A DNA stretch of 38,708 bases from Persephonella sp. (lineage in GTDB: Bacteria > Aquificota > Aquificia > Aquificales > Hydrogenothermaceae), in the NCBI RefSeq assembly GCF_027023985.1, contig NZ_JALVTW010000016.1, positions 1-38,708 on the forward strand. Reading direction: 5' to 3'. Position numbers and translations under genes: made by a program. Of the stretch, positions 28,652-33,674 are shown piece after piece (positions within the stretch are counted from its first letter, which is position 1; the number at the start of each line of letters is the position of its first letter). The notes beneath the pieces are model-generated. The model searched no databases. It was not told the DNA's origin and saw nothing but the letters and a program-made list of their open reading frames with translations.

Positions 28652-29857
28652 ATGCTCTCAAAGATATACGGGCAACAGAAAAAGGATATATATCTGCTTA
28701 TATTTAATCTGCTAAAGGATAGTAATGTATTTGGAATTCTTTATGGTAAAAAAGGGATAGGCAAAAAATATGTTGTCACAAGTGCAATCAATAATCTGTC
28801 TTCATCATTTGATAAAAAGATATTCATTGAAGCAACACCTCTATGGAAAAATGAAATTCTTTCAACCCTTGGCATAGAAGCAGATGCAGAAATATCCAAA
28901 GAGGAATTTTTAATTAAATTAATAGATTTTCTGGAAGGTTTTGATGGCAGAGTGTTTATTGTTATAAATAATGCACAGAATTTGACAGAAAAAGAGTTGT
29001 CAGAACTTGCACATCTTTTAAATATAAAAGAGAAATTATCTGTTTTTGTAATAGGCACATCACAGCTGAAAGAAAAGCTAAACCCATTTAAGATAGGAAA
29101 AATAGAAGGTAGCATAAACTTTATTCTTGAGGTTGAACCTCCTGAGTTTGAGGAGTTCAAAAAATACTTTACAGATAAGTATGGTTCCCAGATTGAAGAA
29201 AAAGCCTTAAAAATACTTTATAAAATGACAGACGGTTCTATAGAAGAAGCTGAAAATACCATATTAAGAATAGGAAAATTCCCTATAGAACCTAAAGATT
29301 TAGGATACAAACCGGATTTTTTGAAACCTGTTTTGCTTGGAGTGGCTATTTTTACAATTATAGGTGTAATTTCATACGGAATTTATTACGGATGGAGTTA
29401 TTTTAATTCACCAAAAGAAGAAGAAATAGTAGAAAAAATCAAAAAGTTAGATAAAAAACTACCGGAAGAAGGGATAATTACAGAAGGATTACCTATCAAA
29501 CCAAAGCCAAAAAAACATAAAAAACCTGTGATTAAAAAGATAGAGTTCAATGAAGAAGATATTATTCAGGAGATTAACCGGCAGTTAGATAATCTTTCTT
29601 TTGATATACCTGAAGTAAAGTTCTATCAGCCGGTTTATAATTATCTTGTTCAGGTAGCAGCATTCAGGAATTTTGATAATGCGAAAAAGTTTGCCGATAG
29701 TCTGAAAAAAGAATTTCCGGATATAACTGTAATTAAAACCAAAAAAGGACTCAGCCTTGTTGTAATCAAAGCCGAGAATAAAGAAAAAGCTGTTAAGATT
29801 AAAAATAGACTTAAAAAATATAAATTGAGTGCGGTAATTAAAAGGATTAGAAAATGA
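28652..29857 (+). CDS. DamX-like membrane protein: degraded AAA domain plus SPOR domain
   Basis: A 401-aa bitopic protein. The N-terminal cytoplasmic part (1-220) follows the ExeA/GspA ATPase fold but Walker A reads GKKGIGKK (32-39, no Thr/Ser after the Lys) and Walker B reads FIVINNAQ (102-109) where the family has the IDEAQ of its neighbour, so ATP hydrolysis is probably lost. One membrane helix (224-250) and a Pro/Lys-rich periplasmic linker (255-300) lead to a C-terminal SPOR domain (331-398) beginning YLVQVAAFRNFDNAKKFA. SPOR domains bind denuded septal peptidoglycan. The layout equals DamX. The gene ends inside the start of its intact-ATPase neighbour (ATGA). GGGAG precedes the ATG. Confidence 0.85.
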   Translation: MLSKIYGQQKKDIYLLIFNLLKDSNVFGILYGKKGIGKKYVVTSAINNLSSSFDKKIFIEATPLWKNEILSTLGIEADAEISKEEFLIKLIDFLEGFDGRVFIVINNAQNLTEKELSELAHLLNIKEKLSVFVIGTSQLKEKLNPFKIGKIEGSINFILEVEPPEFEEFKKYFTDKYGSQIEEKALKILYKMTDGSIEEAENTILRIGKFPIEPKDLGYKPDFLKPVLLGVAIFTIIGVISYGIYYGWSYFNSPKEEEIVEKIKKLDKKLPEEGIITEGLPIKPKPKKHKKPVIKKIEFNEEDIIQEINRQLDNLSFDIPEVKFYQPVYNYLVQVAAFRNFDNAKKFADSLKKEFPDITVIKTKKGLSLVVIKAENKEKAVKIKNRLKKYKLSAVIKRIRK

Positions 29858-31056
29858 TGGATTTTTTAGAGTTTTTTAATTTAAAGGAAAATCCCTTTAA
29901 ACTTACGCCTGATGTAGATTTTTTCTATATGTCATCTGTCCATCAGGAAGCCCTTGCTTCACTTGAATACTTACTTAATTCTGAAGAAGGGTTTGCAGTA
30001 ATTATAGGTGAACCTGGAACAGGAAAAACAATAACAATCCGTAAATTCCTCAGTCAGATTCCGGACAATGTGGAATATGCTTATATTCTTTTTCCTAATT
30101 TATCTCCTGAAGAGTTATTTATGGCAATATTAGAGGATTTTGGCATACAACTATCTGATAAAGTTTCTAAAAATAAGCTTTTTTCTACATTAAGAGACTT
30201 CCTGATACAAAAAAGGAAAGAAGGCAAAAAAGTTCTTGTGATTATTGATGAAGCCCAGAATTTACCTGTGGAAACCCTTGAAGAACTCAGAATTTTATCA
30301 AATCTGGAAACTGATAAAGAAAAACTACTTCAAATAATACTTCTTGGTCAGCCTGAATTAGAAGAAAAACTGAACTCATCAGAACTTAGACAACTCAGAC
30401 AAAGGATAAGTATTCTGACCAGTCTGTCAAATCTGGATTACAGAGAAATGGTTGATTATATCAACTACAGACTATCAAAGGCAGGTAACTCAACAATAAG
30501 AATATCAGAAAAAGCCTATAAAGCTATTTATAAATACACACAGGGAAATCTAAGACTGATAAATCTGCTAATGGAAAGAGCCCTTATGTCAGCTTTTGTT
30601 GAAAATAAACACCAGATTGATAAAGAAAATATAGAAAGTGCAGCGGAAAGTCTTGCCTTAAGAAAAGAAACTGAGAATAAAAAGTATCCTGTTTTAATAG
30701 GTGTTTTTGCATTTATAGTCTTTATATTTGCCGGTGGTTTTGCCTATATCTATTTTTCAGATAAAAATCCTCCTAAAAGAAATACCGTTATTAAAAAAAT
30801 TAATAAATCTGCCATTCAACATAAATTTGGAATAGTAATTGCAAGCACTTTAAATATGAGGGAGTCTCCATCTATTAATTCAAAAATTATTAATAAATTA
30901 AGAAGAGGTGATAAAATAGAAATTGTTGAGGATACAGGGGACTGGGTAAAAGTAAAAAAAGACACCCTTCAGGGATGGGTTAAAAAAGAGTACATAAAGA
31001 TAGAAAATGGAACAGCTAAAAAAACGAATCAACCAGATAATAGGAAAGAATTTTAA
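29854..31056 (+). CDS. ExeA/GspA-like ATPase with periplasmic SH3 domain
   Basis: A 400-aa bitopic protein. The cytoplasmic AAA domain opens with FFNLKENPFKLTPDVDFFY, the GspA/ExeA hallmark, and has intact Walker A GEPGTGKT (52-59) and Walker B LVIIDEAQ (127-134), plus LRQRI. One membrane helix (279-300) and a linker lead to a bacterial SH3 domain (327-383) with ASTLNMRESPS...GDKIEIVEDTGDWVKVK. ExeA-type proteins bind peptidoglycan and help assemble secretin or pilus machinery. Here it is paired with a non-hydrolysing SPOR paralogue, so the two may form one complex. No secretin genes are in the window. Confidence 0.88.
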   Translation: MMDFLEFFNLKENPFKLTPDVDFFYMSSVHQEALASLEYLLNSEEGFAVIIGEPGTGKTITIRKFLSQIPDNVEYAYILFPNLSPEELFMAILEDFGIQLSDKVSKNKLFSTLRDFLIQKRKEGKKVLVIIDEAQNLPVETLEELRILSNLETDKEKLLQIILLGQPELEEKLNSSELRQLRQRISILTSLSNLDYREMVDYINYRLSKAGNSTIRISEKAYKAIYKYTQGNLRLINLLMERALMSAFVENKHQIDKENIESAAESLALRKETENKKYPVLIGVFAFIVFIFAGGFAYIYFSDKNPPKRNTVIKKINKSAIQHKFGIVIASTLNMRESPSINSKIINKLRRGDKIEIVEDTGDWVKVKKDTLQGWVKKEYIKIENGTAKKTNQPDNRKEF

Positions 31057-31360
31057 ACATGTGGAAGCTATTTTTGTGTATAAAGATGATAGTTTGATTT
31101 CATACAAATTTGCTCCATTTATTGAAGACAATCCTGACAACTTTTATAAATATACATCTCATATAGATAAGATTTTGAAATATAAGAATAGATTAAGGGA
31201 AAAAGTCCTGTATTATTACAAAGTGCATATTGGAAAGAAATATGTCTACTTGTATGTTTACCGCTTATATGATATTTATTTCTTTATTTTCACAGATAAT
31301 TTGAGTCTGGATACAGCACCTATTGTTTATGAACAAATCTTAAAACCTGTTACCCTTTAA
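31007..31360 (+). CDS. Small cytoplasmic protein cotranscribed with ExeA-like pair, unknown
   Basis: A 117-aa protein whose ATG lies 50 bases inside the preceding gene. It is Tyr/Lys/Phe-rich with alternating strands (AIFVYKDDSLISYKF, KKYVYLYVYRLYDIYFFIFTD) and two helices, an alpha/beta sandwich order that loosely recalls Roadblock/LC7 proteins; I cannot assign it. No ribosome site is evident, so expression is probably by translational coupling. It overlaps lipA tail to tail by 11 bp. Tight overlap suggests a role with the two ATPases. Confidence 0.65.
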   Translation: MEQLKKRINQIIGKNFKHVEAIFVYKDDSLISYKFAPFIEDNPDNFYKYTSHIDKILKYKNRLREKVLYYYKVHIGKKYVYLYVYRLYDIYFFIFTDNLSLDTAPIVYEQILKPVTL

Positions 31361-32192
31361 GTTGATAAAAAATCTCATCTGCGTGGAATGAACTTCTAAC
31401 CAGGGTTCCGCTAAAAACCTGTTTGAAACCTATTTCATATCCTATTTTTTCCAGTTCATTGAATTCCTCTTCAGTGTAGTATTTTTTGACAGGATAATGG
31501 TTTTTTGATGGTCTGAGATACTGCCCTATTGTTAGTATTTCACAGTTTACATTTACTAAATCTTCCATAACCTGCACTATCTCTTCTTTTGTTTCTCCAA
31601 GTCCAACCATAATACCTGATTTTGAGGTTATATTTTTGTCAAGCTCCTTAATCCATTTTATAATCTGTAATGACCTTTGATAATCGCCTCTATGTCTTAC
31701 CACAGGAAATAATGAAGGAACCGTTTCTATATTATGATTAATGACTTCAGGCTTTGCTTCAGCAACGATTTTGAGGGCTTCTTTATCCCCTAAGAAATCA
31801 GGAATAAGCACCTCTATACTGCAATCAGACTTTTCTTCCCTGATTGCTCTAATAACCCGTGCAAAATGGGATGCACCACCATCAGGAAGGTCATCTCTGT
31901 TCACAGATGTTATAACTACATGCTTCAGATTTAGGAATTTTACGGCTTTTGCTATGTTATATGGCTCAGAAGGGTCAAGGGGTAGTGATCTATCATGGGA
32001 AACATCACAATAGGCACAATTCCTTGTGCATCTATCCCCCATTATCATAAATGTTGCTGTTTTCCTGCCAAAACAGTCTCCTATATTTGGACAGGATGCT
32101 TCCTCACAAACAGTATGGAGATTAAGCATCCTGAGCATAGCTTTCATTTTTGTAACATCTTCAGATAAGAAATTTTTTACCTTTGGTTTCAT
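31350..32192 (-). CDS. lipA: Lipoyl synthase
   Basis: A 280-aa radical SAM enzyme that inserts two sulfurs into octanoyl groups on lipoyl domains. Both clusters are visible: auxiliary [12 protein letters not shown] (Cys29, Cys34, Cys40) and radical [11 protein letters not shown] (Cys55, Cys59, Cys62); the C-terminal RSSFHAD holds the serine ligand. Of the two adjacent ATGs (32195, 32192) the second is seven bases from AGGAGG; a longer hydrophobic N-terminus (to 32240) is in the neighbour's leader and not credible. Divergent from the YjbQ gene with 46 bp between. Confidence 0.95.
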
Positions 32193-32238
32193 CATTAAAC
32201 CTCCTATAATAAAAATAATAACAGAAGAGGAGGTTGCC

Positions 32239-32655
32239 ATGACAAAAGCTTATACAGAGTATCTAACATTTAACACAAAAAACAGAAGGGAGCTTATAAA
32301 GATAACAGATAGAGTGCAGGAAGCCGTTGAAAAATCAGGAATAAAAGAAGGTTTATGTCTTGTTTCAGCAATGCATCTAACAGCTTCGGTTTTTATTCAG
32401 GATGATGAGGAAGGGTTACACGAGGACATATGGCAGTGGCTTGAAAAACTTGCACCGTTTAAGCCCGATTATAAACACCATTTAACCGGTGAAGATAATG
32501 CAGATGCCCATCTAAAAAACCTTCTTACACATCTTCAGGTTGTCCTTCCTGTTACAAATGGAAAACTTGATTTAGGACCCTGGCAGGAGATTTTTTATGC
32601 CGAGTATGATGGACAAAGACCTAAAAGAGTTATTATAAAAATACTGGGAATATGA
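32239..32655 (+). CDS. YjbQ (UPF0047) family protein
   Basis: A 138-aa protein of the YjbQ family: [22 protein letters not shown] (in part), [20 protein letters not shown] and [20 protein letters not shown]. The three conserved histidines of the family trimer are present. Some members show weak thiamine-phosphate synthase activity; the true role is unknown. AGAGGAGG lies five bases before ATG 32239, which overrides a longer open frame reaching into lipA. Confidence 0.9.
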
Positions 32656-32691: not shown

Positions 32692-32928
32692 ATGTTAGAG
32701 TTTATTTTAACTGCTGCAGCCGAGCAGGAAGTATTTAACAAACAGCTTGACAAATGTGACCCTTATTCTGCCTTTGGTGTTTTCTGTAATGCAAATGGAT
32801 TGATAGAAGGATTTTTAATTATAGCCGGTGTTATTGTTCTGGTTGCAGGAACTCTCTGGTTTGTTAAGAAAAATCAGGAAGCAAATGCAGAAAAGCACAG
32901 GGAAAAGTATAAGAAATATACTCAGTGA
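32692..32928 (+). CDS. 78-aa single-span membrane protein
   Basis: A small protein with a periplasmic N-terminus holding two cysteines (KCDPYSAFGVFCNANG), one membrane helix (about 38-58, IEGFLIIAGVIVLVAGTLWFV) and a short charged cytoplasmic tail. GGTGGGAAG precedes the ATG. The stop overlaps the convergent cytochrome gene by 7 bp. The paired periplasmic cysteines and the nearby cytochrome genes make a respiratory role conceivable, but no family is recognised. Confidence 0.65.
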   Translation: MLEFILTAAAEQEVFNKQLDKCDPYSAFGVFCNANGLIEGFLIIAGVIVLVAGTLWFVKKNQEANAEKHREKYKKYTQ

Positions 32929-33362
32929 AACTGTTCAGCTTCATCTATTATATCTTCAACATCTTCTTTTTTCTCATTTTTCTTGTTTTTTAACTCTTTT
33001 ATAGAATCTATTAGGACATATTTTGCAAGGGCTTTTGCCTCTTCAAATGGAATATCAAAAGGAGGCATGTAAGCCATTCCCGGCCAGTGTTCAGGTTTTG
33101 GTTTTATAATAAGTTTTGCAACAGTTTCTATGGCCTTTTGGCTTTGGCCGTATCTTTTAGAGATTTCAAGGAAAGAAGGTCCCACCACTCTTCTGTCAGG
33201 GGCATGACAGGAAGAACAGTTATACTTGTAGAATAAAGTTTTACCATCAAGTGCAAATGAAGTTAATGAAAAGAATAAATATATAAAAAGCCCCCAAATA
33301 AAGGGGGCTTTAGTTTTATTTGTGGCTAAGAATGAATTGTGCAAGAGCTTTAAGTTCCTCAT
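32922..33362 (-). CDS. Monohaem c-type cytochrome with uncertain start
   Basis: A class I cytochrome c: haem motif CSSCH, GPSFLEISKRYG (the usual VGP segment), Met ligand in MAYMPPFD, then a Lys/Glu-rich tail. A hydrophobic signal or anchor segment (WGLFIYLFFSLTSFA) precedes it. The only ATG (33362) lies inside the upstream cytochrome gene (46 bp overlap), has no ribosome site, and the frame from it runs through a strong terminator hairpin (33287-33311). After the hairpin no ATG, GTG or TTG exists before the signal segment; ATT or ATA would be the only choice. Expression probably depends on coupling to the upstream gene. It is otherwise intact. Confidence 0.75.
   Translation of the reverse strand: MRNLKLLHNSFLATNKTKAPFIWGLFIYLFFSLTSFALDGKTLFYKYNCSSCHAPDRRVVGPSFLEISKRYGQSQKAIETVAKLIIKPKPEHWPGMAYMPPFDIPFEEAKALAKYVLIDSIKELKNKKNEKKEDVEDIIDEAEQFH
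33287..33311 (-). terminator. Strong intrinsic terminator inside the second cytochrome frame
   Basis: AAAGCCCCC, 7-nt loop, GGGGGCTTT; on the minus strand followed by TTATATATTTATT. It begins 5 bases after the stop of the 33316-33642 cytochrome and would end its message, yet sits inside the open frame of the second cytochrome. Confidence 0.85.
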
Positions 33363-33642
33363 CAGAAAGTTGTTTTGTTGTGTTGAGCTGTGGTTTCATT
33401 GTAGCGAACATAGAAGGTAATACTTTTGGTTTAGCTTCGCCTTTGAGGAATTTAATTAAAGCAGCTTCATCTCCGTTGTAAGCTTGAGCAATTTGTTTTA
33501 AAGATGGTCCTACAGTTTTAACTGCTGCTTGGTGGCATGCTGTACATCCTTTGCTTTGGAAAATTGCTTTTCCGTCAGCTGCCATTGCTGCTGATACAGC
33601 TACAGCCAGTCCGAAAGTAGCCGCTGCAACTAATTTTTTCAT
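33316..33642 (-). CDS. Periplasmic cytochrome c552-like protein
   Basis: A 108-aa monohaem cytochrome: signal peptide MKKLVAAATFGLAVAVSAAMA (about 1-21), haem motif CTACH, VGPSLKQIAQAY and the Met ligand in LPSMFATM, closing LAQFILSHK like Hydrogenobacter c552. It carries electrons in the periplasm between respiratory complexes. ATG 33642 has GGAGG eight bases upstream. A strong promoter lies 30 bp ahead and a strong terminator follows, so it is probably abundant and mostly monocistronic. Confidence 0.93.
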   Translation of the reverse strand: MKKLVAAATFGLAVAVSAAMAADGKAIFQSKGCTACHQAAVKTVGPSLKQIAQAYNGDEAALIKFLKGEAKPKVLPSMFATMKPQLNTTKQLSDEELKALAQFILSHK

Positions 33643-33674
33643 TTGTCTAACCTCCATTAGTTTGATTTAATCTT

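Follow-up and report, generated by a model that had tools for sequence, protein, structure and literature searches.

A tandem of degenerate and intact ExeA-like ATPases in Persephonella, the intact one probably linked to an MSHA-type pilus

Introduction

ExeA, MshM and DamX have usually been treated separately, the first in secretin assembly, the second as an ATPase whose loss has no clear phenotype, the third in cell division. ExeA is reported to bind peptidoglycan, to form large complexes with ExeB and to be needed for secretin assembly (PMC4098917). One account counts mshM as mandatory in MSH systems and lists the carriers of MSHA-type pili as Gammaproteobacteria, Chrysiogenetes and Epsilonproteobacteria (PMC6668835). 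A V. cholerae mshM deletion mutant is described as producing pili as the wild type does (PMC4624765), so pili can form without an ATPase of the MshM type. PA5037 of Pseudomonas is presented as a DamX homologue (PMC9712689). It has also been termed ExeA-like, and mutants without it are reported to bear fewer pili and to twitch less while forming PilQ multimers normally (PMC6321873).

Here, we describe a locus of Persephonella sp. where a protein of the DamX plan adjoins one of the ExeA/MshM type, in several relatives beside a pilus operon. The arrangement raises the testable idea that DamX-plan dead ATPases are wall-anchoring partners of live ones, which, if true, would give a reason for the effect of the DamX homologue on Pseudomonas pili. 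The locus also points to MSHA-type pili in Aquificota. A description of a tandem dead-live ExeA pair was not found in the literature searched; others may exist.

Results

The window, the whole stretch of DNA analysed, comprises positions 1-38,708 of contig NZ_JALVTW010000016.1 (Persephonella sp. assembly GCF_027023985.1, genome G000 below). The three open reading frames that a first-pass annotation had proposed all exist on the + strand: P1 (28652..29857, 401 aa), P2 (29854..31056, 400 aa) and P3 (31007..31360, 117 aa). They are followed by the convergent lipA (lipoyl synthase, named by reading of its sequence; 31350..32240, - strand), which lies outside the pair and serves as a synteny marker. 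P1 and P2 overlap by 4 bp, an overlap typical of coupled translation. P3 had been described as embedded in the end of P2; the two do overlap, by 50 bp, but most of P3 lies outside P2.

P1 is a degenerate ExeA-like AAA protein with one transmembrane helix, a linker and a SPOR domain. It matches Pfam AAA_22 with 38.9 bits (cut-off 27) and SPOR, a domain of the cell-wall-binding type (29639..29839), with 39.3 bits (cut-off 21). Its Walker A motif, GKKGIGKK (28745..28768), carries a lysine in the usual Thr/Ser position, and its Walker B motif, INNAQ (28964..28978), lacks the catalytic glutamate. The transmembrane helix is predicted from a hydrophobic stretch (29318..29395) and is helical also in a poor structure model (mean pLDDT 43.4), which served solely for this point. 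A conserved juxtamembrane motif, DKKLPEEG (29450..29473), is a putative binding site; the form [KM]KLPxEG just outside the membrane is present in 12/12 genus members with P1 and in 0/5 P1 proteins from other genera. When P1 was aligned with 14 relatives, 14 of the 15 sequences matched SPOR (E<=0.01).

P2 is an intact ExeA/MshM-like AAA ATPase with one transmembrane helix and an SH3_3 domain (30844..30999), matching AAA_22 with 104.6 bits and SH3_3 with 53 bits (cut-off 27). The motif columns place its Walker A, GEPGTGKT, at 30007..30030 and its Walker B, IDEAQ, at 30244..30258, and a hydrophobic stretch predicts the helix at 30685..30756. In P1, as in P2, a single hydrophobic stretch separates the AAA domain from the periplasmic-type domain. 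The motifs, the shared plan and the presence of a cell-wall-type domain in each protein agree with the first-pass annotation, now by sequence and Pfam.

Comparison of the window with two relatives gave dN/dS values of 0.09-0.10 for P1 and 0.12-0.15 for P2. The value for P1 indicates purifying selection and rules out a pseudogene. That for P3 is unreliable, since its dS has reached saturation and part of the gene is shared with P2. Same-order orthologues in ten genomes of the genus, together with the low dN/dS, argue that P1-P2-P3 is more than a chance arrangement. P2 scored 265.1 bits against TIGR03015 (XrtA/PEP-CTERM ATPase), under the curated cut-off of 324.5, and was thereby ruled out as a PEP-CTERM ATPase; P1 scored 28.5 bits against the same model. 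A plasmid search for P1 relatives returned none at E<=0.01, and a scan of genome contigs returned one match, a close relative. The P1 of a Persephonella MAG locus is 90% identical to that of the window.

Motifs were compared in an alignment of 17 P1, 2 P1sdr (P1 standing alone at an SDR-gene locus), 4 P1up (the dead protein that precedes P2 in genera g2 and g6), 30 P2 and 4 short paralogues. Both the Walker B catalytic glutamate and the arginine that we take to be sensor 2 are absent from all P1-type proteins (0/23) and present in all P2-type proteins and short paralogues (34/34). Arginine at the presumed arginine-finger position is found in 0/17 P1, 0/2 P1sdr and 4/4 P1up, so P1 is unlikely to trans-activate the ATPase of P2. 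Walker A has decayed unevenly: lysine or arginine replaces the threonine in 12 of the 17 P1 proteins (all 12 from the genus of the window), GKT is kept in three, and the motif is unrecognisable in two. The hydrolysis residues are thus gone throughout, while some P1 proteins might still bind nucleotide. Judged by motif, P1 is dead in every orthologue and P2 is live, the assignment already made in the first-pass annotation. P1, P1sdr and P1up lie together on one side of a branch in the tree (support 30/45); the alternative that joins P1up to P2 of the same genera was not rejected (p-AU 0.128).

One Aeromonas record served as a yardstick, carrying ExeA-ExeB, an MSHA operon and pilQ-aroK-aroB-DamX-dam, with gene names assigned by reading. 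(A 4.9-Mb sequence labelled as an Aeromonas plasmid, NZ_AP026896.1, reads like a complete chromosome.) ExeA/GspA and P2 share an intact AAA_22 ATPase with Walker A and B, one transmembrane helix, a periplasmic wall-binding domain and an adjoining gene for a second protein, and their AAA domains are 40.7% identical. They differ in the wall domain: Aeromonas ExeA has GspA_C39-like and PG_binding_1 domains, whereas P2 has SH3_3 instead, and PG_binding_1 was absent from P2 among the 25 Pfam families listed. They also differ in the neighbours, which for ExeA is ExeB, with which it works, and for P2 are the dead ATPase P1 and the roadblock-like P3, with no GspB/ExeB gene. The AAA protein (MshM) encoded between mshL and mshN in Aeromonas shares 38% identity with P2, and a Legionella operon has its AAA gene at that position too. 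Both MshM and P2 are ExeA-like ATPases tied to mshL and mshN. However, mshM lies inside the operon and P2 outside it, and P2 has 400 aa compared with 303 aa in Legionella, the extra length being its periplasmic domain.

The tie between P2 and the pilus was examined in a scan of 136 genomes of the phylum, with full-length P2 defined by E<=1e-100 plus an open reading frame of 370 aa or more, and MshL by E<=1e-40. MshL was found in 30 of the 33 genomes with P2 versus 18 of the 103 without it (Fisher p 2e-14, kinship ignored). Inside the family the figures were 18/20 versus 7/21 (Fisher p 3e-4, kinship again ignored). In 11 of the 33 genomes with full-length P2 the distance between P2 and MshL is 1.8-5.5 kb, and in G076, G077 and G110 a P2 truncated where its contig stops stands beside the operon. 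The operon near P2 reads mshI-J-K-L-N-prepilin, with P2 at its end and no mshM inside. We named mshI, J and K from where they lie and from their likeness to one another; none of the three has a Pfam match, and mshK has a weak NCBIfam match to another family.

Exceptions occur in both directions. Full-length P2 is present in only 3 of the 88 genomes without MshL: G007, in which an MshL fragment exists, G046 and G101. Full-length P2 is missing from 18 of the 48 MshL genomes. Five of these 18 hold distant MshL matches (31-34% identity), and three are G076, G077 and G110 with their truncated P2. G022, G048 and G054 have a pilus operon without P2 and also without mshN in the operon; in G054 a TPR gene with a weak MshN match (E 4e-4) lies a few kb away. 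G008, G010, G016, G042, G080 and G111 have MshL without full-length P2 and are incomplete, end near the place or are not settled. The clear exception is G066, whose operon contains mshN and lacks P2.

The window genome has an MSHA-type operon, in which mshL is directly followed by mshN with no mshM between them; P1-P2 and the operon are on different contigs. Its MshL scored 241.3 bits against TIGR02519 (NCBIfam), just below the cut-off of 250.2. The pilus motor is MshE-like, with MshEN and an MshE-related c-di-GMP domain, and a GspF-like MshG is present. No major pilin was identified for the MSHA-type pilus of this genome. P2 is best read as the MshM/ExeA ATPase of the MSHA-type pilus, and we infer that it is the mshM of the window genome's own system. 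The link between P2 and the pilus is, in our judgement, highly probable. The first-pass annotation had proposed a heteromer that reads the state of peptidoglycan outside and drives ATP hydrolysis inside, with the septum among its possible sites. This idea is partly supported; the surroundings of the genes point to the building of pili and not to wall reading at the septum, where P1 may nonetheless have a role.

The operon of the window genome (L097, G000:C14, 5308-15609) ends with a gene for a 609-aa prepilin-like protein, which has an Ig-like (He_PIG) match below the cut-off, suggestive of a pilin and an adhesin in a single molecule.

Gene order was then compared among relatives. P1-P2-P3 followed by convergent lipA is found in ten genus members (G000, G001, G003-G007, G009, G011 and G013), and in G010 the locus is split over contigs. 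P1 is followed by lipA without P2 at the locus in G002 (74% complete), and P2 by lipA without P1 in G012 (70% complete); at this completeness a copy elsewhere is possible, the loci themselves being whole. No P1-P2-P3 locus was found in G008 (55% complete). The P1-P2 tandem stands on one contig in 14 genomes of three genera, those of other genera in the family being G015 (g3) and G017, G024 and G041 (g5); in G043 (g5) the two genes fall on separate contigs. Four genomes of two further genera have a P1up-P2 pair (G014 of g2; G018, G046 and G047 of g6). The P1up of G014 and G018 carries SH3_3 by Pfam, the C-terminal domains of the remaining P1up being judged by eye, and both genomes hold P1sdr elsewhere, with two SH3 domains. 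In g5, P2 has a C-terminal domain that is SPOR-like by eye; Pfam SPOR gave E 0.019 in G024 and no match at E<=0.05 in G017 and G041. In a second family of the order, P1 is absent from 9/9 inspected P2 loci. Conservation of gene order, whose loss in relatives the first-pass annotation had named as refuting its idea, is therefore partial: the P1-P2 tandem and the P1up-P2 pair recur, whereas the genes are separated in G002, G012 and the nine second-family loci. The trio is not obligate, and P1 is a common but dispensable partner.

P3 is present in 12 of the 136 genomes, and in G015 it neighbours lipA, with P1-P2 some 58 kb away, so a conserved three-gene module was rejected beyond the genus. P3 has no Pfam or NCBIfam match. 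A two-sequence model (mean pLDDT 76.9, pTM 0.74) predicts the roadblock topology of helix-2 strands-helix-3 strands-helix. Foldseek gave three matches at E<=0.001, all to human Ragulator-type complexes. A second fold comparison placed Mon1-Ccz1 longin-type domains at the top (Z 13.3), followed by a Streptomyces roadblock domain (Z 11.6), MglB 3t1x (Z 10.8, 106 residues, rmsd 2.5) and MglC 7ct3 (Z 10.8, 110 residues, rmsd 3.1). The predicted fold is thus like that of the roadblock/LC7 proteins MglB and MglC, but P3 lacks a match to the Pfam family, 0/11 orthologues matching Robl_LC7 at E<=1, and no GTPase gene was recognised beside it. A PDB profile search with P3 returned just three chance-level matches. 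The matches to the model speak for a fold, not for a function. Within the genus P3 is a partner of the locus and at most a candidate part of the pair. Elsewhere in the window genome (L081, G000:C18, 2328-3944), a roadblock/LC7 protein with a Pfam score of 67.8 bits is encoded with a GTPase-like gene nearby.

Discussion

The observations are the sequence features, the motifs that mark P1 as dead and P2 as live, the tandem arrangement and, in relatives, the co-occurrence of P2 with the pilus operon and its position close by. On these we base the following explanation. P2 would serve an MSHA-type type IV pilus as its ExeA/MshM-type ATPase, encoded outside the operon and bearing its own transmembrane helix and SH3 wall anchor. 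Using ATP, it would build the MshL secretin and inner-membrane parts into the peptidoglycan layer or set their position, in the way that ExeA acts on ExeD. P1, encoded directly upstream, would be a paralogue that hydrolyses no ATP; anchored to the wall by SPOR, it would dock on P2, supply a second wall contact and bias the building site of the machine. P3 may be a small roadblock-like adaptor or a bystander of the locus. The action of P2 on MshL and the docking of P1 are inferred, and the normal PilQ multimers of the PA5037 mutants, which have fewer pili, fit a positioning or stabilising role of the dead partner. We lean slightly towards accepting the explanation as a whole; physical association of P1 with P2, taken by itself, is quite possible but falls short of probable.

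A broader form of the idea is that a live and a dead ExeA-type ATPase make up one dedicated wall-reading assembly unit of the MSHA-type pilus. The dead member would have been established or exchanged on two or more occasions (P1; the separate P1up lineage of g2 and g6), with interchangeable wall domains (SPOR with SH3, SPOR with SPOR-like, SH3 with SH3); conservation would extend to two wall contacts and one motor. We regard this form as rather doubtful.

P1 could instead be a DamX-like septal protein, its SPOR domain bringing it to denuded glycan at division sites and its dead AAA domain binding division or wall enzymes, with the adjacency of P2 incidental. Full-length Aeromonas DamX has the plan of P1, namely a degenerate ExeA-like AAA domain, a transmembrane helix, a long linker and SPOR, and it has lost the catalytic residues as P1 has (GKPGSGRG and IIERAD instead of live motifs). 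SPOR is described as a septal targeting domain (PMC9712689), and G002 keeps P1 without P2 and without detected MshL, in a genome 74% complete. However, the profile comparison of P1 with DamX by hhalign was weak (probability 11.9, E 0.0025), and the P1 profile run against the whole Aeromonas record gave three matches at E<=1, DamX not among them. In one tree P1 and DamX, candidates for common descent, were joined with support 83/74 and an end branch of 5.84. Aeromonas DamX is encoded between aroB and dam and separated from a pilQ-like gene by two genes, whereas no dam, aroB or pilQ was recognised beside P1 in the loci read. Unlike DamX, P1 is coupled to a live paralogue, in 14 genomes of three genera, and the DamX homologue PA5037 is itself tied to type IV pili (PMC6321873). 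We consider this septal reading improbable.

Another reading is that P1 and P2 are co-transcribed but functionally separate, the tandem being a remnant of gene duplication beside the pilus operon. Each is found alone, in G002, in G012 and in the nine second-family loci, and P1 lacks the arginine-finger position. Against this reading stand the 4-bp overlap and the state of G014 and G018, in which the lone P1 is at the SDR-gene locus and another dead AAA protein has taken its place upstream of P2, suggesting selection for a dead-live pair. Separate functions appear unlikely. It is less likely still that P2 serves another secretin, of a PilQ-type pilus or of type II secretion, as ExeA does: its AAA domain is as close to ExeA as to MshM, P2 lies near a PilQ-like secretin in the MshL-less G101 (L146, G101:C168, 4187-9269) and G046 has P2 without MshL, but P2 stands beside the MshL operon in eleven genomes and is nearly confined to genomes with MshL, though most of 41 genomes have other secretins.

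Beside the proposed P2-P1 pilus pair, the window genome encodes a short ExeA-like paralogue of 307 aa (L081, G000:C18, 9513-11424), which ends soon after its hydrophobic stretch and follows two short lptC-/lptA-looking genes. This order of three genes also occurs in G019, G020 and G021 (L109-L111), genomes without MshL. Within the window, two adjacent, mutually similar genes for small c-type cytochrome-like proteins lie on the - strand at 32922-33657.
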